This document shows, in pieces, positions 2,913-33,302 of a stretch of 33,302 nt of DNA (position 1 is its first letter; each line of letters starts with the position of its first letter). Location: NCBI GenBank assembly GCA_016872215.1, contig VHAX01000024.1:1-33302 (forward strand). Direction: 5' to 3'. The DNA comes from Sphingomonadales bacterium (GTDB lineage Bacteria; Bacteroidota; Bacteroidia; UBA7662). Under the pieces are notes generated by a model. The model did not search any database. It was given only the letters and a program-made list of their open reading frames with translations, and was not told the origin of the DNA. Position numbers and translations under genes: made by a program.

Positions 2913-4199
2913 ATGTTCGACGTTTTTTCAAAGTACCGCTGGCCATTTATACCGGGCAGGGGTAAAACACTTTTGGTTTGGGCATGCACGCTTTTTGCGC
3001 TGGCTGCAGTTGGTGCTGCCATACAATCGTGGTGGTTGGCCCAAACGAGCACGAATACGATCAATGGAGCACGCTTCCACGACTACAACAACTATGTAAT
3101 CTTCAAGCAGTCATTTTATCATCTGCTGGTGCAGAGGGACTTATATCAGGCCTGGCCAGCGGAGCATTGGGACTTATTCAAATACACCCCCACTTTTGCT
3201 CTGTTTTTTGGTGTGTTTGCCGTATTTCCTGATTTCTGGGGACTCATCGGATGGAATTTGTTGAATACAACGGTTCTCGCAGCCGGGGTCTTGAACCTGA
3301 GAAGCTGGTCGCAACGTGAACAGGCACTTGGGCTTTTGTTCTTGTTGCCCGAATTGCTCATATCCTTACAAAATGAGCAATCGAATGCCCTCATTGCGGG
3401 ACTATTGCTACTCGCAATGGGAGGACTTGAGCGGGGGCAACAGTTTCGCCCTGCTTTATGGATTGTATGCAGTGTTTTCATTAAACTATTTGGCGTAATG
3501 GCTCTCGCGCTGATTCCTTTCTCCTGGCGCTGGCACGCAACCCTGTTCAAAGCGATTGGAATCACAATAGCCCTTGCGGCGTTGCCTATTCTCGTGGTGT
3601 CGCTCGATTTTTATTGGGCTATGATGTTTAGTTATTCCCAAATGTTGACCTACGATCACTCGGTATCTTATGGGATGTCGGTCATGGGGTGGCTTCAGGC
3701 ATGGTTTGGTCGCGCCCTAGCCATTCAGATCCCCAAAACGCCCGTCTTTATAGCGGGATTAGTTTTATTGATCTCGCCTGCGCTGCACGTTTGGTGGACT
3801 CGGGTACGCGCACAAGGCCTCTGCGGCAAGTGGTGGGGCGAAGGATTGCCCGCGTCATCATCATTCCGAGCCCTATGGCTTTCCTCTCTGACGATATGGA
3901 TGGTCATATTCAACCACAAAGCGGAGTCACCCACCTTTATCATAGCCCTATCAGGAATCCTGCTGGCCTATCTTCATGGCCCGCGTACGCGCTGGGATCG
4001 TGTCTTGCTAATCGCCTGCTGGATTCTCTCGTCGTGGTCGCCCACCGACCTATTTCCGTCGACACTTAGAAAGGAATGGGTAGAGCCTTTTCAGCTAAAG
4101 GTGTTCCCTTATATTCTGTATTGGTTGCGTGTCGTTTGGCTGATGTGGACGACTACACGAAAAGACGCGTGGTCTTTGTCGACTCAGGATCTTCCGTAA
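2913..4199 (+). CDS. GT87-like (DUF2029) polytopic membrane glycosyltransferase
   Basis: A 428-residue integral membrane protein, hydrophobic nearly throughout, with an N-terminal transmembrane helix (TLLVWACTLFALAAVGAAIQ) followed by a periplasmic-type loop. The motif FKYTPTFALFFGVFAVFP and then GWNLLNT is characteristic of the DUF2029/GT87 family, whose studied members are polyprenyl-phosphate-mannose-dependent mannosyltransferases of the GT-C fold. A late loop contains NHKAESPTFIIALSG, also family-like. The acceptor is unknown. About 150 bases separate it from the methyltransferase. It is intact, unlike the decayed GT39 gene at 11440-12847. Confidence 0.75.
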   Translation: MFDVFSKYRWPFIPGRGKTLLVWACTLFALAAVGAAIQSWWLAQTSTNTINGARFHDYNNYVIFKQSFYHLLVQRDLYQAWPAEHWDLFKYTPTFALFFGVFAVFPDFWGLIGWNLLNTTVLAAGVLNLRSWSQREQALGLLFLLPELLISLQNEQSNALIAGLLLLAMGGLERGQQFRPALWIVCSVFIKLFGVMALALIPFSWRWHATLFKAIGITIALAALPILVVSLDFYWAMMFSYSQMLTYDHSVSYGMSVMGWLQAWFGRALAIQIPKTPVFIAGLVLLISPALHVWWTRVRAQGLCGKWWGEGLPASSSFRALWLSSLTIWMVIFNHKAESPTFIIALSGILLAYLHGPRTRWDRVLLIACWILSSWSPTDLFPSTLRKEWVEPFQLKVFPYILYWLRVVWLMWTTTRKDAWSLSTQDLP

Positions 4200-4690
4200 T
4201 TTTCGAAAATCGCTCTATCGGATTTTCCAGGCTGAGTGTAGTTTCGGTGCGGTGAACCCCCGGAATGGTCTGGATTCGGTAGTTGAGAATTTGCCGAAAC
4301 TGGTCGGTGTTGCGACAAACTAATTCCAAAAAATGCTAATGGCATCAGTAACATAATGCGCTTTTACTAGTTCTTAAATTTCCTCGAGAATTCGGATGAC
4401 TTCTTCATAATCGGTATTTTTTCTAATAAATGCCAATGAATGCAATCAAGTCGTATCCAATTTTTCGGTAATCGACGAGCAGACTCGAACAAAATATGAG
4501 ACCCGCCTGCTGCATCTTTTTCATGCGCATATGCACCGAGGCATTGGATACCGGTATTTGTGCTGCAATTTATGTGTCGGGCATGGCGGCGTTGTTCAAC
4601 AACGCTTTTAAAATGAGCCTGTCGGTGCGGTCGTGTTGTAGTCGTGGTTCCTGATCCTTGGTTTTGGTGCTGAACAAGGAGCTGTGGGAT
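4200..4690 (-). pseudogene. decayed Lrp/AsnC-family transcriptional regulator
   Basis: Reading the - strand downward from about 4690 gives DRTDRLILKALLNNAAMPDT, an in-frame TAA, then IAAQIPVSNASVHMRMKKMQ and SSLLVDYRKIGYDLIAFIGI: the Lrp/AsnC helix-turn-helix and start of the ligand domain. A frameshift follows; the next frame gives TDYEEVIRILEEI, stop, ELVKAHYVTDAISIF. A second shift back yields VCRNTDQFRQILNYRIQTIP and GVHRTETTLSLENPIE. At least two frameshifts and several stops show it is dead. The C-terminal end abuts or slightly overlaps the GT87 gene end. Limits are approximate. Confidence 0.85.
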
Positions 4691-4796
4691 TTTTCGGTTT
4701 AAGAACTGACTAGAAACATATGCTAAAAAGCAGGATAAATTCAGAAAAATATAAATAATTAATTAAAATATATCGAATAAATAAAATAAATTCAAA

Positions 4797-4908
4797 TATT
4801 ATAAAAAATATTATAAAAAATATTATAAAAAATATTATAAAAAATATTATAAAAAATATTATAAAAAATATTATAAAAAATATTATAAAAAATATTATAA
4901 AAAATATA
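4797..4908. repeat. 12-bp AT-only tandem repeat, about nine copies
   Basis: The unit ATAAAAAATATT repeats from 4801 to about 4908, nearly perfectly, with a partial unit before it. Each unit contains AATATT, which is self-complementary. 12 bp is four codons, so reading frames stay open through it (a Phe/Ile run on the - strand), but this composition is not a plausible protein. Near-identity of the copies suggests recent expansion. Confidence 0.9.
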
Positions 4909-5197: not shown

Positions 5198-7168
5198 TCA
5201 ACTTATAACGCGAACGGCTTCGGTTAGATCCTCCGACTCGAGACGGGTTAGATGCGCGCGGTCGGGGTTTTCTAAGGAGGCCAGTCGGTTGCTGTGAGCG
5301 ACCACCATAGTCTCAAACAGGTTGCGGACATAACGGGCGTTGCCGAAGTCCTCGCCCGCCGCGCTGGATTTATGTTTTAGGTGCGACAAAAGGGCCTCTG
5401 CCAGGGTAGGGTCGATTTCGTAGTCGTTGGCCTTGGCCACCCGTTTGCAGATCTCCACCATTTCTTCGGCTCCATAATTGGGGAAAAACACTGTGCGGTT
5501 GAATCGGCTGGCGAGTCCGGGGTTGGAGCCGATGAAGCGGTCCATTTCATCGGTGTAGCCGGCCACCACCAACACCAGCCGGTTTCGGTAGTCTTCCATC
5601 CGCTTAAGTAGTGTATTCACGGCTTCCTGCCCATACGAGTCATCGCCCTTTTCTGGGGCCAAGCTATAAGCTTCATCAATAAATAGTACACCATCGAGAG
5701 CCCGGGTTATGACCTCATCGGTTTTTATGGCTGTTTGTCCGGAGTAGCCCGAAACCAGGCCCGCGCGGTCTACCTCGACAAGGTGACCTTTTTGCAAAAC
5801 GCCCAACTCGCGAAGCATATCGGCATAGAGACGCGCTACGGTGGTCTTGCCCGTTCCGGGTGCTCCCGTGAACACGCTGTGCAGACTCACCTGCACTACC
5901 TGGAGTCCGGCTGCGGCCCGTTGTTGCTGCAGGCTAACCATGTTCGACAGGCTTTTCATCTGCTCCTTCACTGAGGCTAGTCCCACTAGTTGGTCAAGCT
6001 CCTGCAGTGACTTCTGCTTTTTTCGTCCGCTCCCCCCTTGTGTATCGGACCCGGATGAACGATAATCTTCTGATTTGACACCCGGCGAGGCGGTCGCAAC
6101 CGGCGGTGTGAAAGGTCCGTTGAGATTCTCTGGAGCTTGTCCCTTCAGTACTAAAAAACAGAGCCGAGCCGCTTCGGGATCGTCGAAATGGCTCAGCGTC
6201 CAGGAGATTTTTGATTCCTTTTCATCCCATTTATACAATGATGTGTTGTCGACCGCGTAAATCGACTCCTTCAGGTTCAGCACATTTTCAGGCATGACCA
6301 ATTCTGTCCGAATTAGGTCTATAAAGACCAGACACTCGTCGTAGACATACACCTCCATGCGGCTGTCAGACGAATTGCGCCCCCCTACGCGCTGAACCCG
6401 GCAGTGGCTCGTCCAGTAATTGCCGCTGATGCTGAAAGTCTTGTATCCATTGTTTATACTCAGTCGAAGAAGTGGTCCTCCGTCCCGCAACTGTACCCGG
6501 TTGTAGGCATTCAGGAATTTTTTCAGGCGGGCGTTGTCGTAATTCATCTCCATTCCGGTCAGCAGCAAGGCGTATACGCGAATACTGTCTGCCTCCTCGC
6601 GACTCACCTTACCGTCTCGTCCTCCAGCCTCCAGAATGCGGTCGACCGAGGGGGCAGATGCAGCTTGGTAAATTTGGCGCATATCCGTTTCCGGGATATC
6701 AAACAGGTGGTAGAGCCGCATGATCGACATCAACTCCTCGCTATCGATCCGGCCATCGGCGAAAGCTTTTTGGGCCTGAACATACGCGAGATTTAGGTTC
6801 ACCGACAGGTCAGGTGGAAGATTGTCTTCGCCCGGTTTGAGCATGGGTTTCCAAGCTTCGAGGCATTTGAGCGCCGATGGATCGACGCTGTTGCTCAGTA
6901 GTTCTTTTTTTAGGAATCGATAGAGCTTTTCCCGGTCGCGTTCCCCATCATTTTTTGATACGGAATGGCGTGTTTCCAGTTCAAGCACGTATGCCACGGA
7001 AGTTTGGTCAGGTTGGGTGGAATCAAGGTAATCACACAAACTTTTGAGGTATGCGTTGGTTCTCTTGTTCAGAATCCAGCCCTTATTCTGCAAATCGCCG
7101 GGCAATCGATTCCAAAGAGGCATAGGCTTGTTTTTGTCGACAGATGCGGGTACAGAATGATCGTCCAT
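5198..7168 (-). CDS. CbbX/SpoVK-type AAA+ ATPase with EF-hand-like and PH-like N-terminal region
   Basis: 656 residues. The C-terminal third is a CbbX/SpoVK/EccA-type AAA+ module: Walker A GAPGTGKTT near 434, a pore-loop-like GYSGQT, Walker B VLFIDEAYSL near 492, sensor VVAGYTDEM, and NPGLASRF with the arginine finger near 551. Family members remodel protein partners as hexamers. The first 400 residues differ: a helical region with two EF-hand/TerB-like acidic loops (ADGRIDSEE near 136, RDGKVSREE near 180), then a strand-rich PH-like segment (about 230-340) and a Ser/Gly/Lys linker. No signal peptide. It starts 18 bases after the FISUMP gene ends, so they are likely co-transcribed. No RuBisCO or ESX gene is nearby; the client is unknown. 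Confidence 0.85.
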   Translation of the reverse strand: MDDHSVPASVDKNKPMPLWNRLPGDLQNKGWILNKRTNAYLKSLCDYLDSTQPDQTSVAYVLELETRHSVSKNDGERDREKLYRFLKKELLSNSVDPSALKCLEAWKPMLKPGEDNLPPDLSVNLNLAYVQAQKAFADGRIDSEELMSIMRLYHLFDIPETDMRQIYQAASAPSVDRILEAGGRDGKVSREEADSIRVYALLLTGMEMNYDNARLKKFLNAYNRVQLRDGGPLLRLSINNGYKTFSISGNYWTSHCRVQRVGGRNSSDSRMEVYVYDECLVFIDLIRTELVMPENVLNLKESIYAVDNTSLYKWDEKESKISWTLSHFDDPEAARLCFLVLKGQAPENLNGPFTPPVATASPGVKSEDYRSSGSDTQGGSGRKKQKSLQELDQLVGLASVKEQMKSLSNMVSLQQQRAAAGLQVVQVSLHSVFTGAPGTGKTTVARLYADMLRELGVLQKGHLVEVDRAGLVSGYSGQTAIKTDEVITRALDGVLFIDEAYSLAPEKGDDSYGQEAVNTLLKRMEDYRNRLVLVVAGYTDEMDRFIGSNPGLASRFNRTVFFPNYGAEEMVEICKRVAKANDYEIDPTLAEALLSHLKHKSSAAGEDFGNARYVRNLFETMVVAHSNRLASLENPDRAHLTRLESEDLTEAVRVIS

Positions 7169-7186
7169 TGAGGTAGCTTTTTAGGA

Positions 7187-10100
7187 TCAGTCCTTTATAC
7201 AACGCACCGAACCGCCCCAGGGTTTCGTGCCCGTGGCGGGAGATATATTACCGGTTGAATTCCTGAAATACTGGCCTTGAACGAGATTAGTGGTTGATAG
7301 GGTTGACGACAACAACAGGCAGTAACCCGATAAAGAAGTGAACTGCCCGTCATCGCCTGAGCGGGCACCAGCCGGGAGAATCGACAATCCAAGCGCATCG
7401 GTGCCCCTATGGGTGGTGTGGCTGTTCCATCGAGGGTGTACGGTGGTATTGCAGCCTCCCCCCAAGGGCGATGTTACCTGCCGGCATGATTTCAATGCGC
7501 TCCCAGCTCCGTTCACATTGGATGAGGTGTTGGGATAGCCTCGACTCACTGTGTGGTTAATCAGGGTAGTGAGTTCCGCATTGGTAGGCACATGCCAACC
7601 CAAGGGGCATAACTTTCTGGGATCGGCAATTGCGTACCAGTTGTATAATTTGCCGTAAACCTGTTCGTATTGCATATCATTCTGGTAGGAAGACCAGGCA
7701 CCGGCTGTGGTGTTTTTCCACTGAATACTGTCGGTAATCAGGGGGATACTGTCGCCATTCGTGTAGAGTAGAGCCCTGAGGTGCGACTTAGTCCAGCATT
7801 GTGTGCCCAACAAAACGGTCGCATAGCGGAATCCAGATAGGTCTTGAAGGGAATCGGTGCCACAGGTGAAACCCACCGATGCGGGTAGGGTGTGGAACAT
7901 TCGCTCCGAACCATAAGCCGTGCCGGCAGCATTGGTGGCAAAGGCCCGGACATAATACCACGTACCCGGGTTCAAAGGCGATAAAGAGGCGGTGAAGGCA
8001 GCAGTTCCTCCACCAGCGGCGGAATTTGCATGAGAAATATTGGGATTTCGGGCGGTATTCCAGCATACTCCTTTCGAGGTGATGGGTGCACCACCATCGC
8101 TGAGTATCCGTCCGCCCCCTACTGCAGAATTTTGGGTGATGCTATTGATGGTTGATGTGAGTAGATAAGGCAATACCACATTGATGCTCGGAGTCGAAGC
8201 GTTTTGTATGCAGCGTACTGATAATGCATGCAACTCCAGGCGTGTGGATGACATTTGGTTTGGGGTACGGTCGAACCCAACCTGGCGATAGTTGCCACCC
8301 AAGGCATCCGTGAACTGCAAATCGCAGGCCCAGAAATTGGCTTGCAAACCCAAAAAGGAAAAAACATTGTCGTTGTAGCCCACCCCACCTGGGAGAATGC
8401 TCATGCCTAATGCGTCTGTGCCTCCGATCGAGCCCGACCAGTTCACCGCTGCTTTTAGACGCAATCCACCGTGCAGTGAGTCACCCGCAAACTGAGCCAG
8501 TGCGTTCCACTCCGACTGGGAGGGCAGATGCCAGCCGGTCGGACACAAGCCCCGAGCATCTGTGGCCGCTAGATAACTATAAAGCCGGCCGTAAACCGAC
8601 AGATTGGAAGTGTCGTTGTTATAAAGGGTTGTAGTGCCCACACCCGGGATGTTCTGCTGATATCGCCACAGCACACTGGCGATCGTGTCGTTGTTGTTGT
8701 AGCGCCGGGTTCGCAGGTTGGTTTTCATCCAGCACTGACTCCCAATAGTCACGGTTTCGTAGAGGTTGTTCTCCACATCGGTCACGGTGGCTGCACTACA
8801 TGCATTCCCGCCTTGTGGTGATAGGGTCGTAAATTGAATGGAATTTCCATAGGCGGTGCCTGCAGCATTCTCGGCAAAGGCCCGCACATAATAGGTGCCG
8901 TAGGAGAGTGTGCTGAGGGTATGGGTAAACAAACCCGTATCGCGACCAAGGCTGATTTGAGCATGGTTGCGGGTGGGCATCGGACGGTGGTTCCAACAGA
9001 AACCGCGGTTCAGAATAAGCGCGCCGCCGTCGGAGGAGATGCGCCCGCTGATTTGAGCCGATTGTACAGTAATGGCGGCGGGTGGCAATGTGTATATAGA
9101 TGGGGGCATGTAGATCGACACAGTTGTATCGGGTGTCCGCAAACAGCGGATAGATCGGCCGTTTTGTCGACTTCCTGTAGTGCGCGATAAATTCCCACCC
9201 GATGAATTCAACTGAACATACCAGCTGCTGCTACCGGAGGATGATGAACTCCACCAGGAACCGTTACTCCCCGGAGCTATGAATGAAGCGCCTGAACTCG
9301 ACAGGCTACCTCCTGGTAGTGCCGCGAAGCCGAATGGATCGCTGCCATAGTGTATGTTGTGGCTGTTCCACCGTGGGTGTGTGGCTGTACCGCAGCCCGA
9401 TTGCCCGCCACCGTTCAATTGCCTACATGATTTGAGTGCAAAACCCACCCCATCGAAATCCATAGAAAGATTCCCATAACCGCTCAGCCCCAGAAACTGT
9501 GTGAGTGCCTGCCAATCAGGGTCGGTGGGTACACGCCAACCAGTTGGGCACAAACCACGCGTGTCCGCGGCCGCATGAGCATTGTAGAGCTTGCCGTAGT
9601 TGGCCTCAAATTGGGGTTCCGATGTGTTAATGGTCCATGCGCCTAGTTGGGTGGTCGACCATCCCGTTGAATCGAGCCCACTAACGAGGGGATCTCCATT
9701 ACGGTAGGATGTGACACGGAGGTTCATCGCTGTCCAGCACTGACCGCCTATTTGAATTGTCGGATAGCTAAATCCTGAAAGATCTATAATCGGGGTTCCA
9801 CATTCAAAAGGCGCTGAGGGTGTGTTCACTAAAACCACACCGCCATAGGCAACCCCTACAGAATTGATGGCGTAGGCCCGGGTTTGATAGGAAGTGGACG
9901 GAAACAAACGCGACAATTTACCCGTGTATGACCCAATTCCCGTCCCATTTTGGGTAGTGTCATCGGCTATAGTAGGTGGTCGACCCGAAGACCAACAGAT
10001 GCCACGTGATGTAATCGGGCTGCCCCCGTCGCTAGGGATTTGTCCGTCCACCTGTGCTGAAAAGGGGAGGAGTGAAGACACAGACCCTGTGTTCACTTCT

Positions 10101-11242
10101 GGAGCAGTTGGAGGGGTGTAGAAGCTTAAGGCAATTCCATAACCAGTGCCAGCGGCGTTCGTGCCGAAGGATCGAACAAAGTAGGTTCGGCCGCTCTGGA
10201 GTCCGCTGATCACGGCTTCAATTCCATTACCTGGACCGATGGCACTGGCCTGAACCACTCCATGGGTAATCAGGGGAGTAGCTGATGTGTCGTAACAAAA
10301 TCCACGAATAGACAGGGGGAGTCCACCATCCCTCAACACTCTTCCGTAGGCCATTATACTGTTGGAAGTTACCTGGGTAATGGAATCGGTGCTCATTTCA
10401 GGAGCAACGGGAGTCGGGTTCACCACCGCCTCTGCAGAGTAATAAAAACCTGTAGAATTTTGCGCAAATCCTTTTACATACCAGTTGCGCCCGGGTAGGA
10501 GTCCGGGCAGAAAGGCGGTAAACCCGAACCCCCCGCTACCCGTATACAATACGCTGTCGGTGACATCCGGATTAGGCAGGGCACTCCAGCAGAGTCCGCG
10601 CGCGAATATTCCGCTACCTGGCTGATTGAAACGCAATCCAACCTGAGTGTTGTATCCCAGGGCGACTACTGTATCGATCGACAGCTGGGGCGCAGTTGGC
10701 GAAATCAGATAACTGCCATTGATGTCACCCCCACACAACACCAGGAAATCGCGCTGTAAGGGACTCCCCTGAGCCACGACCAACGTTGGATCCCACAGAA
10801 AATCACCTATGGCGAAGGAACCCGTCAGGAAACCAACACGGCGACTAATCTGAATGGCATCAGTCGAATTCAGTACTCCATTGCCATTGACGTCGGCCAC
10901 CCGGTTTCGAAAGGGGCTGAAGATTTGTTGGCCTGAGAATGATCGCTGTGCATTGAGTGCGTCGGTACTGTTTACCCCCCCCCAGGGATACCCGATTTGG
11001 GCCACAAAAGTGTAGGTCGCCGAGGGATAATCCTGCAAATGAAATTGGCCTTGGGCATTTGTGGTGTCGAAAGCCACCGGCAACCCCGCTAAATTCAGTA
11101 ACCGTACAGGAATCCCTGCCAGAGGTGTATGATTGAGGTTGTCGTATCGCAGAGAACCCTGAACACTATTTTGAGCCGAGGTATTGTGAGATGAACAAAT
11201 AAATGCCATACACAGAATCAAACCAAACCCACTTCGATACAT
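7187..11242 (-). CDS. secreted protein with dockerin-like segment, five Fn3-like repeats and three FISUMP modules
   Basis: 1351 residues with an N-terminal signal peptide ending near NTSAQ. Next come a carboxypeptidase-regulatory-like strand region (about 25-85) and two dockerin-like lines (GGVNSTDALNAQR, then VADVNGNGVLNSTDAIQISR, about 88-140). Five Fn3-like repeats follow, marked by RGxCW near their start and VRAFATNAAGTAYG near their end. Three FISUMP modules (the Fibrobacter succinogenes major paralogous domain) lie at about 477-700, 814-1011 and 1125-1351, each with a QCW motif, LCPTGWxVP and a final SxRCxxx. No T9SS sorting domain is visible at the C-terminus, so how it reaches the surface is unclear. 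A run of nine G lies in codons 86-89. Probably an envelope or secreted adhesin or substrate binder; function unproven. Confidence 0.85.
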   Translation of the reverse strand: MYRSGFGLILCMAFICSSHNTSAQNSVQGSLRYDNLNHTPLAGIPVRLLNLAGLPVAFDTTNAQGQFHLQDYPSATYTFVAQIGYPWGGVNSTDALNAQRSFSGQQIFSPFRNRVADVNGNGVLNSTDAIQISRRVGFLTGSFAIGDFLWDPTLVVAQGSPLQRDFLVLCGGDINGSYLISPTAPQLSIDTVVALGYNTQVGLRFNQPGSGIFARGLCWSALPNPDVTDSVLYTGSGGFGFTAFLPGLLPGRNWYVKGFAQNSTGFYYSAEAVVNPTPVAPEMSTDSITQVTSNSIMAYGRVLRDGGLPLSIRGFCYDTSATPLITHGVVQASAIGPGNGIEAVISGLQSGRTYFVRSFGTNAAGTGYGIALSFYTPPTAPEVNTGSVSSLLPFSAQVDGQIPSDGGSPITSRGICWSSGRPPTIADDTTQNGTGIGSYTGKLSRLFPSTSYQTRAYAINSVGVAYGGVVLVNTPSAPFECGTPIIDLSGFSYPTIQIGGQCWTAMNLRVTSYRNGDPLVSGLDSTGWSTTQLGAWTINTSEPQFEANYGKLYNAHAAADTRGLCPTGWRVPTDPDWQALTQFLGLSGYGNLSMDFDGVGFALKSCRQLNGGGQSGCGTATHPRWNSHNIHYGSDPFGFAALPGGSLSSSGASFIAPGSNGSWWSSSSSGSSSWYVQLNSSGGNLSRTTGSRQNGRSIRCLRTPDTTVSIYMPPSIYTLPPAAITVQSAQISGRISSDGGALILNRGFCWNHRPMPTRNHAQISLGRDTGLFTHTLSTLSYGTYYVRAFAENAAGTAYGNSIQFTTLSPQGGNACSAATVTDVENNLYETVTIGSQCWMKTNLRTRRYNNNDTIASVLWRYQQNIPGVGTTTLYNNDTSNLSVYGRLYSYLAATDARGLCPTGWHLPSQSEWNALAQFAGDSLHGGLRLKAAVNWSGSIGGTDALGMSILPGGVGYNDNVFSFLGLQANFWACDLQFTDALGGNYRQVGFDRTPNQMSSTRLELHALSVRCIQNASTPSINVVLPYLLTSTINSITQNSAVGGGRILSDGGAPITSKGVCWNTARNPNISHANSAAGGGTAAFTASLSPLNPGTWYYVRAFATNAAGTAYGSERMFHTLPASVGFTCGTDSLQDLSGFRYATVLLGTQCWTKSHLRALLYTNGDSIPLITDSIQWKNTTAGAWSSYQNDMQYEQVYGKLYNWYAIADPRKLCPLGWHVPTNAELTTLINHTVSRGYPNTSSNVNGAGSALKSCRQVTSPLGGGCNTTVHPRWNSHTTHRGTDALGLSILPAGARSGDDGQFTSLSGYCLLLSSTLSTTNLVQGQYFRNSTGNISPATGTKPWGGSVRCIKD

Positions 11243-11439: not shown

Positions 11440-12847
11440 TTTGTGCAATCCACATTCCGTCATTGTTCCGCGGGGTGGGTTCATCGATAGTTTACTTTAT
11501 GCATCGGTTTGTCACAGCCTGAGTCTGCAGGAATAATACGCCATCTGCTCGAGCTTCAGCGACATCCTTTATCTCGAATTTGCAGAACATCTGCCACTTA
11601 TGTTTTGACTGTGCTATTGGTGATTTCGGCTCCTAGGCGATCATCCGTGGACGGAAAAGTGCTTTTCTTTGGTTTTGGCGATCGGCATGTTGTCGGCGTT
11701 ATACCTTCCTGGAAAAGACATATACCCGGTCAGTAAAACTAGTATGGATGGGGCTGGTGGATGCTGTTCTGGTGTCTGGTGCCAGTGCCATTGTGTGGAC
11801 TTGGACAGATCATGCTCGAGAATCCGCTAACTCTTTTCACTTTCTCCGCGGTGTGGGCGACTATGGTTCGCAAAAAATATATAGTAGTGTGTGTGTGGTT
11901 GGGATCATTCATCCTGCTAGCCGTCATCACCAAAGGCCCACCTGCTTTGTTTCCTTTCGCCACGCCACTGCTCTTATAGATTTGCTGCCAGCGCATTACA
12001 GGCGACATATCTCGGGTTACCTCCCTATTGGAATCGGTTTTCGGGTTGCTTTTCGCTATTGGGTGAACTTGAACGCCACTGCGTGATGCCATGCAGCGCT
12101 ACCGGCAAAGGCAGTTACAGGCAGTTTTCCCAGGTGAAAGACCATACTGTGAGTTTTGGGGGCTAAATGAACACATATGGATCACGCATATATAATGTGT
12201 CGACTTTTTTTTGGGAGATGCTTCTTCCTGCAATCATCCTGCTTGTATGGTATTTGATTTTTGGTAAATGAAAATAATTCCAAGGGAAGTTCTGCCCTCG
12301 ACACCATATGGGGGACAACTCAGGAAATATGTGTTGTTTTTTAAGCTCATGGCCTTGAGTGCAACTGTCCCGCTTTTTGTTTCTCTTAAGCTGCACCCTC
12401 ATTATTTGATTCCTTCCTATCCTAGGTGGCCTTTAGAATTGACCTCGCAGCCCTGCCCGTGCGACGCCTGATGCCATTCCAGGTGCCGCACATCAATAGT
12501 ATGCGGAATCAAATCTGCTTAAATGTAGTGGCACCCGTTTTTGTGGCGGGCTATTTAAGGTTCACATGGAGGAATCGTGATTTGCCTGTTCGGGATTTGT
12601 CGCTGTAATCCGATATCAATGAGGTGGTTCAAACACTAAAAAGAACAGAGCCTGCCGGCGATTGTTGTGGTACAGCAATTTTATCGGAGATTCATGGCTA
12701 CCATGCCAAAATGTTGTATATGCAACGATATTACGGCATTAGCCTTGACCCCAATCCGGTGCCTCGTCATTACTTGGTTTTGGCGGGTAAAGGAAATCCC
12801 GATCCAAAAGTGATGGCCTCCGAGTCGACCCCCACTCGAGTCCTTTG
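11440..12847 (+). pseudogene. decayed GT39 (ArnT/PMT-like) membrane glycosyltransferase
   Basis: No long frame survives, but pieces in shifting + frames line up with a GT39 protein in the right order: GGFIDSLLYASVCHSLSL, EFAEHLPLMF then GDHPWTEKCFSLVLAIGMLS (the acceptor-loop and EHPPLMFW region), MLENPLTLFTFSAVWATMV, VITKGPPALFPFATPLL (the hallmark TKGP motif), RYRQRQLQAVFPGERPY, FFWEMLLPAIILLVWYLIFG, and LSATVPLFVSLKLHPHYLIP (the late ArnT-type segment). Stops and frameshifts lie between nearly every block. It was probably a lipid-linked sugar transferase. The boundaries are estimates, and the remainder of 11243-13083 shows no intact gene. Confidence 0.75.
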
Positions 12848-18657: not shown

Positions 18658-19108
18658 ATCAGTCATCAAACCGGGCATTGGGCTTATGGTCATGACTCTG
18701 TTTTTAGGCTGTCGACCAGAGCGGGTCACGCGTATTGAATTGCCCCCGGCAATCCGGATTGTGTCGGTGTCGCCACTGGAGTTGACCGAATTCACCGATA
18801 GGGTCACAGTCGAACTGGGCTACGAAGATGGTGACGGGGATATGGGAAGCCTAAACCCCGATGAGTTGATGTTGGAAGTGAAAGACGATCGACTCGAGCA
18901 GGCCGACTTCTATTTCGTGCCTCCTTTGAGTCCACCCGGTAGCAATGTGCCCATCCGCGGGACCCTGATTTTCAGGCTGAATGGCACCTTTTTGTTTGGG
19001 AACGGCGCATACGAAGAGACCCGCTTCACCATCCGACTGCGCGACCGTTCCGGATTTTGGAGCAATACAGTAGTCACGCCAATCGTCCGCATCAACCGGA
19101 GGGTGTGA
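18638..19108 (+). CDS. small lipoprotein with a single beta-sandwich-like domain
   Basis: 156 residues: signal MVMTLFLGC with lipobox Cys, then an all-beta pattern with YEDGDGDMGSLNPDELMLEV, FYFVPPLSPPG, IRGTLIFRLNG and RLRDRSGFWSN near the C-terminus. The EDGDGD plus RDRxGxxSN combination is common in Bacteroidota lipoproteins of unknown function with an Ig-like fold. Acidic DGDGD could bind calcium. It overlaps the preceding gene by 20 bases and its stop overlaps the next ATG (TGATG), so it belongs to the same unit. Confidence 0.7.
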   Translation: MRADRLKSVIKPGIGLMVMTLFLGCRPERVTRIELPPAIRIVSVSPLELTEFTDRVTVELGYEDGDGDMGSLNPDELMLEVKDDRLEQADFYFVPPLSPPGSNVPIRGTLIFRLNGTFLFGNGAYEETRFTIRLRDRSGFWSNTVVTPIVRINRRV

Positions 19109-22100
19109 TGGCGAGGTGGTGTTTGTTCCTGCTGTTGCTTTGTCCCACGGCACTGGTTTGGGCGCAAAATCCGGTCTATGTAATGAGCAACCAGACGGTG
19201 GGCGATTGCAAGGCTTTTTTTTTGGATTCAGGTGGAAATCCGGTTCAACCAGGTAATTATGCCAACAATGAGAACTACACCTTTGTCATCAGTATACCGG
19301 TGGCACAGCAGATTGTGATGAGTTTTCAGAATTTTTGTACCGAGGTGCTGTTCGACGTCCTCCGCGTATATGATGGACCCGATACCAGTTCTTCCCTCAT
19401 CGGCTCGTTTTCTGGTAATGTTTCGCCACCGGTACTGCGGGCATTCAGTGGTGCTATGACCCTTCATTTTCGCTCAGACCTCAATGTGGTTTGTACGGGT
19501 TGGAATGCCTCTTGGTATGCGGTCGTGCCCCCCCCGGTACCGCCTGTCATCACCAGTGCTACTGCACAGTGCCTTACATCGAGCATCGAGATCGACCTAA
19601 GCGGAAAAGTGCATTGCGATTCAGTCTACGCGGCTGCGTTTGCCCTGAGCGGAACACCGGCGCGGACTGTTGTGGCGGCCCAAGCCTTGAATTGCGCGGG
19701 CGACAGCACCTCACAGGTGCGGTTGATAGTCAATAGTCCCTTCTCGGATTGCGCAAATTATTCTGTGTTATGGGCACTGAATATGCTCGATTTTTGCGAC
19801 AGCCTTTATGTATTCCCTTTGAATACATCTTTTGTCATTAATGATTGCCCGTTAGCGGTTACCCTCAACGCCAGCAACGATTCCATTTGCGTGGGTGGAT
19901 GTATAACACTTACGGCCCAGCCTTCGGGGGGTGATTGCCAATACACGTATTCCTGGAATCCGTCACTGCCGCTGACCGCCGGGCCGCATCAGGTTTGTCC
20001 ACCTCCCGGCACGACAACCTACTCGGTCAGCGTACAGGATGTGCGGGGCAATGGACCTGTTAGTGCTTCCATAACAATCCTGGTTTCACCGGTGCCCGAT
20101 GCGGGGTCAGATACCACCGTTTGCCTGCAGTCGTCCCCATTTAATTTATCGCCACGTGTATTACCCGCGGGCGGACGGTTTACAGGGCCGGGCATTACCC
20201 AGGCGCAATTGGGCACATTCAATCCTACCACGGCGGGTGTTGGTGTACACAACATCTTTTACGATCGTTTGGGCTGTCGTGATTCTCTCAGGATAACGGT
20301 CGTGCATGTGCAGGCCGGACCAACGCTCGCGGCTTGTCCGTCCGCCCCTGCTTTTCAGTTGACTGGGGCTATGCCTCCAGGCGGGGTGTGGTCTGGGCCA
20401 CGGGTCACACCGGGCGGGTTATACACTCCGGCCGATTCGGCACGGACCGATACTCTATACTACACCGCTCTGGGGTGCAGCAGCATGCGGATTGTTATGA
20501 TCGACACGATAGAAATATCTGGTCCTGCCACGGTTTGTCAGAATGCCCCTGTATTTACCCTTCAGTTTACTCCCGCGGGTGGTTTTTGGTCAGGTTCGGG
20601 CGTCACGGACACCCTCCTTGGGCGCTTCAACCCCGCAAACATGGCTGTGGGACTCAATTGGCTGGTGTATCGGGTGAATGGCTGTCGCGATAGTCTACCG
20701 GTGCAGCTGATCCAAATTGATGCCGGCCCTATGCGTACCTATTGCCCGTTAAACGCCCCCGTCCTCCTGCCACCTGGTGTACCGGCGGGGGGCATCTGGT
20801 CGGGTCCGGGTATACTGAATCCATCCACGGGACTGTTCAATCCGAATGTGAATGGCAATTTCTCCAGCCAGACTTTTGCCATTTATTCCCTCGGGGGTTG
20901 TTCTGATAGTCTGATCATCCGCCTGATTCGCACCAATCTGGGGCCGGATACGGTGGCACGCTGCCTTACCGACGGGGTATATGGCCTGTCGGCAGCTACC
21001 CTCAACCGAAACCCGACCGGAGGGGTCTGGAGCGGTCCCGGGGTTAATCCGGCCGGTAACGGAAGTTTCAACCCCGCACTGGTAGGGGTTGGATTTCACC
21101 GCTTGTATTATACCGCGAACGGGTGCTTCGATAGCGTGGTCATAAGGGTCGATCCGCGCCCCGTTTTGCAACCCGATACCGTGGTGTGTGTTTTGGCGCC
21201 CTCCTTCTTGTTGCGCAGCAGCGTTGTGGGCGGTATCTGGTGGGGACCTGGGATTACAGGCCCGGCGACCGGACTCTTTAATCCATCTGTGGCTGGGATC
21301 GGTGTGCACCGGGTCATACAGGCCTTCACCGGTGGTTGTCGCGATACCCTTTATGTGACCGTACAAGCTATCCCCAACCCTCAGTTTAATGTCAATCCAG
21401 CTACGTTTTGCTACCGCGATACGCTTTGGACACTCAATGCATCACCTCCCGGAGGTATATTTACTGGCCCGGGGATTGTGGGAAGCCAGTTTAATCCACG
21501 ATTAGCCGGAGTTGGCTCCCACTGGTTGGTCTATTCGGTGGGTGCAGGGCTCTGCCTTCGCCGCGACAGTGCCCGAGTGACGGTGCTCAACCGCCTATCT
21601 ATAACCCTTTCCCTACCCAAAGATACCTTTTGTGTGGGGGAAACGGTCCGCATTTTTGCCTCAGGTACGGGCGGAGTGCCCTCTAAGAATATTGTTTGGT
21701 TCCCGGGTGGAATAGATACCGATACCCTGGTTTTTTCCGCCATAGCATCTGGATGGTACCGCGCCGTGTTGAGTGATGGTTGCAGCAATGTGTCGACCGA
21801 CTCCGTTTTTATTTATGTGCATCCCCCCCTTTTGTATCAAAAGGTGCAGACTCTGGTGGGCTGCTATGACAGCCTGGGTACATTTGAAATTCGATATCCA
21901 GTTGGTAGTCCATACCGAATCCGATGGCTTACACAGCCCGTCGTGAACGGACCTGTTCTGATACGTCCACAAGGGAATTATACCTTTAGTTTGACCGACA
22001 CCGTAACCGGATGCACCACAACTGATACGGTGAACATGCGCGGGCATCCGTTCATCACGGCTCGCTTTTCGGTAAACCCCAATCGCAGCAGCTGCGCGGA

Positions 22101-22590
22101 GCTCCATGAGGCTGAATTCACCCTGCTCGATCTCTCGGTTGGAGCCACAACAGGCATCTGGTATCCGGGCGATGGGAGCCAAATTCCCTATATTCCGGGG
22201 CAATACCCACGATTCCAGTATGCCGATACTGGGCGCTACATCATTCGCCTATATGTAGAAAACGCGGCTGGCTGCAGCGCAGAAATGGAGCAAACGGTAT
22301 GCGTGAAAATAACCCCCCGCATTTTAGCACCCGACGCTTTTACCCCCAATTTGGACGGCAAAAACGACTCCTTTCTTGTGGTGTCCTTTGGAATAACCGA
22401 TATGGAAACCCGGATCTATGACCGCTGGGGGCATCAGGTCTTTTTTTCCGACCTGCTCAATTTTCGGTGGGATGGCACGGAGTCGGGCAACCCACTTCCC
22501 GCTAGTGTGTATCCCTACGTCATCCGATACCGCGAATACAATGGCCGTTCCAACCGAATATTCCGCGGAACGATTCAGCTGATTCGTTAG
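19108..22590 (+). CDS. CUB-domain repeat protein with gliding-motility type B T9SS C-terminal domain
   Basis: 1160 residues from ATG 19108, chosen over the ATG at 19057 because it directly starts the signal MARWCLFLLLLCPTALVWAQ and overlaps the upstream stop. A CUB domain spans about residues 25-145 (LRVYDGPDTSSSLIGSFSG, two pairs of Cys). Strand-rich regions follow, then seven repeats of 45-75 residues (about 350-830), each beginning PxGGxWSGPGV, with FNPxxxGVG in the middle and a CRDS-like end. A PKD-like segment lies near 990-1060. The last 90 residues (FTPNLDGKNDSFLV, IYDRWGHQVF, WDGTESGNPLPASVYPYVI) are the type B gliding-motility sorting domain used by T9SS. Expected to be displayed or released by the T9SS as the surface partner of the cluster. 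It contains T9 (19215-19223) and C8 (19528-19535) homopolymer runs. Confidence 0.85.
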   Translation: MARWCLFLLLLCPTALVWAQNPVYVMSNQTVGDCKAFFLDSGGNPVQPGNYANNENYTFVISIPVAQQIVMSFQNFCTEVLFDVLRVYDGPDTSSSLIGSFSGNVSPPVLRAFSGAMTLHFRSDLNVVCTGWNASWYAVVPPPVPPVITSATAQCLTSSIEIDLSGKVHCDSVYAAAFALSGTPARTVVAAQALNCAGDSTSQVRLIVNSPFSDCANYSVLWALNMLDFCDSLYVFPLNTSFVINDCPLAVTLNASNDSICVGGCITLTAQPSGGDCQYTYSWNPSLPLTAGPHQVCPPPGTTTYSVSVQDVRGNGPVSASITILVSPVPDAGSDTTVCLQSSPFNLSPRVLPAGGRFTGPGITQAQLGTFNPTTAGVGVHNIFYDRLGCRDSLRITVVHVQAGPTLAACPSAPAFQLTGAMPPGGVWSGPRVTPGGLYTPADSARTDTLYYTALGCSSMRIVMIDTIEISGPATVCQNAPVFTLQFTPAGGFWSGSGVTDTLLGRFNPANMAVGLNWLVYRVNGCRDSLPVQLIQIDAGPMRTYCPLNAPVLLPPGVPAGGIWSGPGILNPSTGLFNPNVNGNFSSQTFAIYSLGGCSDSLIIRLIRTNLGPDTVARCLTDGVYGLSAATLNRNPTGGVWSGPGVNPAGNGSFNPALVGVGFHRLYYTANGCFDSVVIRVDPRPVLQPDTVVCVLAPSFLLRSSVVGGIWWGPGITGPATGLFNPSVAGIGVHRVIQAFTGGCRDTLYVTVQAIPNPQFNVNPATFCYRDTLWTLNASPPGGIFTGPGIVGSQFNPRLAGVGSHWLVYSVGAGLCLRRDSARVTVLNRLSITLSLPKDTFCVGETVRIFASGTGGVPSKNIVWFPGGIDTDTLVFSAIASGWYRAVLSDGCSNVSTDSVFIYVHPPLLYQKVQTLVGCYDSLGTFEIRYPVGSPYRIRWLTQPVVNGPVLIRPQGNYTFSLTDTVTGCTTTDTVNMRGHPFITARFSVNPNRSSCAELHEAEFTLLDLSVGATTGIWYPGDGSQIPYIPGQYPRFQYADTGRYIIRLYVENAAGCSAEMEQTVCVKITPRILAPDAFTPNLDGKNDSFLVVSFGITDMETRIYDRWGHQVFFSDLLNFRWDGTESGNPLPASVYPYVIRYREYNGRSNRIFRGTIQLIR

Positions 22591-32650: not shown

Positions 32651-33302
32651 ATGGATGATCACGAACAGTCGGGCAGCGGGCCACGCAAGCGTAAGGCAGT
32701 CGGTCAATCGTCAGGTGTCGGCTCTGACCGCAAGACGAGGATAGCGAGCAAGCGCAAGGAGCTGCAGCGTTGGGAAGAAGGAACAGGCGATGAAAAGAGC
32801 AAATGGATCCAACGCGAGCTCGATCAAATGTTTGCCGCAGGCGATTCTAGTCAGTCCAGCAAAGGCTCCACGCCAGCTCCTTCGATAGACCGTGGTCGCC
32901 CCGGAAAAGAACCACGCTCTTTCGATATGCCTCGGTCAACGGGTAGAAGAGATTCAGGTGATGGTGGCTACCAGCCCCGTGGCAGACGCGACGGCGATTC
33001 AGATTATAAACCACGCCCTCAACGTGATGGTGATTCGGGCTTTACCCCCCGTGGCAGACGCGATGGAGACTCGGGTTATCAACCCCGTGCCCGCCGCGAT
33101 GGGGATTCCGGTTTTGTCCCGAGAGGCAGACGCGATGGAGACTCGGGTTATCAACCCCGTGCCCGCCGCGATGGAGATTCCGGTTTTGTCCCGAGAGGCA
33201 GACGCGATGGAGACTCGGGTTATCAACCCCGTGCCCGCCGCGATGGGGATTCCGGTTTTGTCCCGAGAGGCAGACGCGATGGAGACTCGGGTTATCAACC
33301 CC
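32651..33302 (+). CDS. RG-rich N-terminal region of a probable RluB-type pseudouridine synthase (partial)
   Basis: The frame from ATG 32651 is open to the window edge (217 codons seen). It begins MDDHEQSGSGPRKRKAVGQS, has a short helical acidic/basic stretch (KELQRWEEGTGDEKSKWIQR), then an Arg/Gly/Asp-rich low-complexity region of alternating 12-residue units RRDGDSGYQPRA and RRDGDSGFVPRG. Bacteroidota RluB-like 23S rRNA pseudouridine synthases often carry such basic disordered N-terminal extensions, and rluB commonly follows scpB; both support the call, but the S4 and catalytic domains lie outside the window. An RNA-binding RGG-like protein is the alternative. Confidence 0.65.
   Translation, partial: MDDHEQSGSGPRKRKAVGQSSGVGSDRKTRIASKRKELQRWEEGTGDEKSKWIQRELDQMFAAGDSSQSSKGSTPAPSIDRGRPGKEPRSFDMPRSTGRRDSGDGGYQPRGRRDGDSDYKPRPQRDGDSGFTPRGRRDGDSGYQPRARRDGDSGFVPRGRRDGDSGYQPRARRDGDSGFVPRGRRDGDSGYQPRARRDGDSGFVPRGRRDGDSGYQP
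33053..33302 (+). repeat. 72-bp in-frame tandem repeat
   Basis: GGCAGACGCGATGGAGAC recurs at 33053, 33125, 33197 and 33269, exactly 72 bp (24 codons) apart. Each unit holds two related 36-bp halves. Copies are almost identical at the DNA level, including third positions, with only a few differences such as GGGGAT/GGAGAT, so the array expanded recently. It continues past the window edge. Confidence 0.95.

Follow-up and report, generated by a model that had tools for sequence, protein, structure and literature searches.

Organization of the locus

The window, the whole stretch of 33,302 nucleotides analysed here, is one complete contig (C24) of a 2.09-Mb genome that is 99.3% complete. A gene for a AAA+ ATPase follows a gene for a giant FISUMP protein head to tail on the same strand, with the FISUMP gene upstream (Table 1). 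The preliminary description had placed the ATPase gene 18 bases behind the FISUMP gene, and both the coordinates and the gap are correct. The window contains 15 sigma-70-like sites (11.6 expected) and 10 terminator-like sites (9.8 expected). The element TANNTTTG, which we take to be a Bacteroidota-type promoter element, occurs 16 times in the window (17.5 expected) and is not found on the minus strand between 7169 and 11400.

Table 1 Features of the ATPase-FISUMP locus; positions are those of the window.
Feature	Position	Strand	Source or remark
AAA+ ATPase, SpoVK/CbbX/EccA clade by sequence, 656 aa	5198-7168	-	ORF, Pfam, NCBIfam, PDB sequence searches
AAA+ core and lid, residues about 388-648	5225-6007	-	Pfam, alignment, PDB sequence search, motifs
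Putative beta-rich part, residues about 230-345	6134-6481	-	Low-confidence models
TerB-like helical part, residues about 120-226 (profile-supported in 120-166 only)	6491-6811	-	Alignment, profile comparison, low-confidence model
Gap, FISUMP stop to ATPase start, 18 bases	7169-7186	-	11 bases in each of three relatives of the same genus
FISUMP protein, 1351 aa	7187-11242	-	ORF, Pfam, NCBIfam
Fib_succ_major domains of the FISUMP protein	9137-9757, 8204-8752, 7193-7810	-	Pfam

Elsewhere in the window, a decayed gene lies at 11471-12797 on the plus strand, with matches in three frames at 45-51% identity. Its intact counterpart at the same place in a related genome (G003, L049:2289-3788) encodes 499 aa and has a PMT_2 match below the cut-off. 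At 19057-22590 the plus strand also encodes a protein of 1177 aa in which the T9SS type B sorting domain model TIGR04131 is matched at 7.5e-13. Tandem arrays occupy both ends of the window (33022-33302 and 1-257; a 72-base unit with 98% matches and a 66-base unit with 88%), which is perhaps why the contig breaks there.

The AAA+ core belongs to the SpoVK/CbbX/EccA clade by sequence

Pfam identifies a AAA domain (1.5e-19) and a AAA_lid_6 domain (5.7e-16) in the ATPase. The core carries Walker A (GAPGTGKT at 435), the pore loop (GYSGQTA at 474), Walker B (LFIDEAY at 495), sensor-1 GY (537-538, within VVAGY, 534-538), NPGLASRF (549-556), and GNAR (609-612). All nine aligned orthologues have these motifs unchanged, apart from one in which F replaces the aromatic Y of the pore loop.

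According to the accessible text of PMC10659427, members of the SpoVK/CbbX/EccA clade share a AAA+ core and lid, a sensor-1 GY, an Asn before the presumed (first) arginine finger, a GNAR-type sensor-2 arginine, and a variable N-terminus. The ATPase resembles them in each respect. G537 and Y538 are invariant (9/9), and N549 precedes R555, the presumed finger, spaced as in CbbX and EccA1; the difference is 6 residues compared with 4 in PMC10659427, whose accessible text does not make its counting convention evident. The arginine of GNAR would, by analogy, serve as the sensor-2 residue.

The closest solved structures in PDB sequence searches are EccA1 of ESX-1 (9lur, 2.4e-56 for the core) and the red-type RuBisCO activase CbbX (3zuh, 4.6e-54; also 3syk). 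However, the ATPase scores below the NCBIfam cut-offs of SpoVK (TIGR02881, 275.8 against 422.95 bits), EccA (TIGR03922, 249.2 against 466.65 bits), and CbbX (TIGR02880, 224.7 against 459.25 bits), all of them equivalog cut-offs. A tree was built from 31 AAA+ rows, a motif filter having dropped the Opitutales row and some second or third AAA+ domains; in it the nine rows of the bacterial family form one group (100/98). This group is not nested with CbbX, itself a long branch, and the fork that places it beside EccA1 and other rows is weak (83/95). By sequence, the motifs, the three missed cut-offs, and the tree put the ATPase in the clade and outside its three named families.

The assignment to a CbbX/EccA type in the preliminary description holds on motifs and PDB matches, in the form of a CbbX/EccA/SpoVK type. 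In accordance with its remark that neither RuBisCO nor ESX is seen, the RuBisCO large subunit model (PF00016) has no match in this nearly complete genome and matches 5 of 14 control genomes, and the WXG100 model (PF06013), the ESX component covered by the search, has no match in the genome and matches 2 of the 14 controls. The ATPase differs from both relatives in its N-terminus as well: it has a long N-terminal half in comparison with CbbX, and a different one from that of EccA1. The preliminary description names only RuBisCO and ESX as what such ATPases normally serve, which is too narrow: SpoVK acts on MurG (PMC10659427, accessible text).

An unusual N-terminal half

The preliminary description had also called the N-terminal half unusual, with EF-hand/TerB-like and PH-like parts. 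The half is indeed unusual and a weak TerB-like signal survives, but the Pfam matches to TerB (15.0-15.9 bits, gathering score 24.4) and EF-hand_5 (14.1-15.7 bits, cut-off 25.9) are sub-threshold. Compared by hhalign with 19 TerB segments of the class, residues 1-230 (a query of nine rows, six kept by the filter) reach a probability of 73.3% with an E-value of 3e-5 over residues 120-166, half a domain; nine controls (the reversed profile and eight column shuffles) reach at most 0.9%. The piece of DjlA-type TerB (PF05099) that aligns, over 47 columns only, is its second DG...E half. Two DG...E stretches are present in the TerB-like part of the ATPase, near residues 138 and 185, and the TerB profile matches the same spot in both genera that carry the ATPase, weakly (domain E 0.013-0.8, 95 sequences).

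The AlphaFold2 model of residues 1-350 has a mean pLDDT of 41.7. A separate model of residues 226-350 shows six strands and a terminal helix at a low mean pLDDT of 37.2. Each was made from an alignment of four rows that leaves out the sister-genus rows. A PH domain is a seven-stranded barrel with a C-terminal helix, and at this model confidence the PH-like label of the preliminary description is tentative.

A profile of residues 1-378 matches 1 of 394 other genomes sampled from the phylum, over 47 positions in the TerB-like region (E 1.8e-4). The first 299 positions of the ATPase profile are reached, among the matches listed, by the nine rows of the family only. Judged from these searches, the unusual N-terminal half appears almost confined to one bacterial family. 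By eye, a TerB-like stretch precedes the AAA+ core in two clade members of other families (G727 and G581), of which the TerB profile matches only that of G581, marginally. The G727 protein (L151:4905-7481) also has an N-terminal DUF4236 (6.2e-20).

Diverse N-terminal domains are normal in the clade and presumably recruit substrates, and the combination of TerB-like and beta-rich parts is none of those named in the accessible text of PMC10659427. The titles and abstract openings of the literature that we found do not describe this architecture.

Distribution of the ATPase

At E <= 1e-8, the ATPase is found in 10 of 21 genomes of the order: in all four of the window's genus (g1) and in six of nine of the sister genus (g2), in G014 only in part. 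It is absent at this threshold from the remaining three genomes of g2, from g3 and g4 (0/4 together), and from the other two families of the order (0/4). With 11 of the 21 genomes lacking the gene, three of them in the sister genus, the ATPase is not universal even among near relatives. The g2 orthologues are 42-45% identical to the ATPase of the window.

The ATPase profile finds matches at E <= 1e-30 in 105 of 395 genomes of the class; 82 of these have two matches, which fits two-motor proteins about 880 aa long. Clade proteins of two genomes (G447 and G601; L160 and L161) have three or four AAA matches; their genes share a context, with a protein kinase gene adjoining and a PP2C gene near in both.

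The FISUMP protein

Pfam finds three Fib_succ_major stretches in the FISUMP protein (3e-96), which also has a dockerin-like stretch and Fn3-like repeats. Its N-terminus looks signal-peptide-like by eye, from which secretion is predicted. NCBIfam models matching at E <= 0.1 are FISUMP and arabinosidase models only, so no sorting domain is detected. The genome has 18 FISUMP places and a single copy of the ATPase gene. Near-identical copies of the giant protein, full-length or partial, occur in g1 only among the 21 genomes of the order; the FISUMP-like matches listed for g2 genomes are partial and at most 49% identical, and none spans the giant protein.

FISUMP domains elsewhere are targets of diversity-generating retroelements (PMC4159848, accessible text), and the same role was considered here for that reason. 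It is not supported for this FISUMP gene; the candidate contig, C49, is cut at the enzyme gene. At its edge, C49 carries a reverse-transcriptase fragment (L163, G000:C49, about 3483-4256, minus strand, PF00078). Its GLPIGNLSSQ stretch resembles gene-diversifying retroelements. In the FISUMP comparison, the 4258 bases of C49 contain no stretch matching the window or 13 other stretches of the same genome. The FISUMP proteins of the window and of G002 are 88% identical over the last 190 residues and 75% over residues 3-721; therefore, the end of the protein is not hypervariable.

The neighbours of the ATPase gene change between genera

The FISUMP gene precedes the ATPase gene in all four g1 genomes (the window, L047, L048, and L049), with gaps of 18, 11, 11, and 11 bases; in G001 and G002 only the 3' part of the FISUMP gene is on the contig. 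The pairing is kept across about 20% protein divergence, as a coupling model also predicts. The other side of the ATPase gene is equally stable, with GT87 glycosyltransferase, methyltransferase, and esterase genes syntenic in all three g1 relatives. Since these flanks are syntenic too, the FISUMP pairing carries little weight. The ATPase-to-GT87 distance is 19-30 bases in the three relatives compared with a 1-kb stretch in the window; inside that stretch, an AT-rich unit of 12 bases is repeated perfectly in tandem (4794-4907, 9.5 copies).

The sister genus presents other neighbours. A phosphoesterase gene is upstream of the ATPase gene in all five g2 loci with a readable upstream side (in the sixth, G014, the contig starts inside the ATPase gene). 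The G007 phosphoesterase has a calcineurin-like Pfam domain and shares 60-96% identity with the other four; the best match in the window's own genome is on contig C2, away from the ATPase. Downstream are a gene for a small protein and, by sequence likeness, an isocitrate-dehydrogenase-like gene; one g2 copy of each was scanned, giving rhodanese and isocitrate dehydrogenase. In 5/5 g2 loci (L050-L054), TATCTTTG and then GTGA and ATG stand directly before the ATPase start. We take TATCTTTG to resemble the Bacteroidota -7 promoter element, and it might be the ATPase's own promoter in g2.

The FISUMP profile matches near the ATPase gene in 3/3 loci of the g1 relatives and in 5/5 control loci, but in none of the six g2 loci and none of 21 other clade loci (10 of 13 found by search, the other three being the g1 loci, and 11 hand-picked from 96 matching genomes outside the family). 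The flanks examined are mostly several kb long and shorter at contig ends; L051 has about 0.8 kb of upstream sequence and L055 has none. Each of the six g2 genomes has FISUMP-like matches elsewhere. The pair is thus seen within g1 only and the loci examined elsewhere lack a FISUMP gene nearby, which leaves the idea of the preliminary description, that the ATPase is coupled to the FISUMP protein and handles or exports it, without support. The two proteins are probably not working partners.

Proposed function of the ATPase

According to the accessible text of PMC10659427, members of the SpoVK/CbbX/EccA clade are dedicated chaperones. By analogy, the ATPase is probably a cytosolic, hexameric AAA+ remodelling chaperone that would hydrolyse ATP as a ring and thread or tug part of its client through the pore loops. 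The N-terminal half, TerB-like and apparently beta-rich, most likely serves to bring in the client or to sense a ligand. The ATPase persists in g2 next to other genes. Proteins that g1 and g2 have in common are the best place to look for the client; a cytosolic protein of this kind is a more likely client than the FISUMP protein. The close FISUMP spacing in g1 would then be a local operon arrangement, giving co-expression at most. We favour this reading, a dedicated cytosolic remodeller with a lineage-specific N-terminus and a client that is probably not the FISUMP protein, with moderate confidence.

A clearly less likely alternative is a role like that of SpoVK on MurG, with the ATPase as activator of a cytosolic enzyme that makes surface polymers or lipids. 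SpoVK and EccA1 offer precedents (PMC10659427, accessible text), and GT87 glycosyltransferase and methyltransferase genes are among the g1 neighbours, but these genes lie on the strand opposite to the ATPase gene and are replaced in g2, and they provide no direct link.

It is rather unlikely that the ATPase is dedicated to the FISUMP protein in g1, with the task of keeping this giant, or some factor that acts on it, competent for export. The constant adjacency on one strand in 4/4 genomes (gaps of 11-18 bases) and the restriction of the giant copies to g1 agree with such a role. However, the six g2 loci lack a nearby FISUMP gene although their genomes have FISUMP-like matches, one ATPase would face 18 FISUMP places, and the synteny of the g1 flanks deprives the pairing of most of its weight. 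The ATPase has no strongly hydrophobic stretch by crude hydropathy, so it could act directly in export only through a cytosolic pre-export step, of which no sign was found.

That the ATPase is a defence or stress protein, with a TerB-like sensor coupled to a AAA+ motor, is very doubtful. The TerB-like stretch fits such a role, as do weak PADLOC matches to IetA (best 4.6e-10), but the latter fall within the generic AAA+ core and are about equalled by those of two other clade members (1.9e-10 and 3.3e-10). PADLOC finds nothing in the FISUMP protein; the other neighbours, among which a defence partner may lie, were scanned with Pfam only. We give hardly any credence to the most elaborate reading, that the ATPase, a CbbX-type motor fused to a TerB-like sensor and to a beta-rich recruiter, serves one Bacteroidota genus as the pre-export chaperone dedicated to a giant surface protein of lectin-like character, which operon rearrangement would have made its partner only recently.

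As a probable cytosolic remodeller, the ATPase adds an uncharacterised architecture to a motor clade whose few studied members are each narrow, serving one client or context. In addition, the comparison with the sister genus shows that operon neighbours, taken alone, can point to the wrong client for such a motor.
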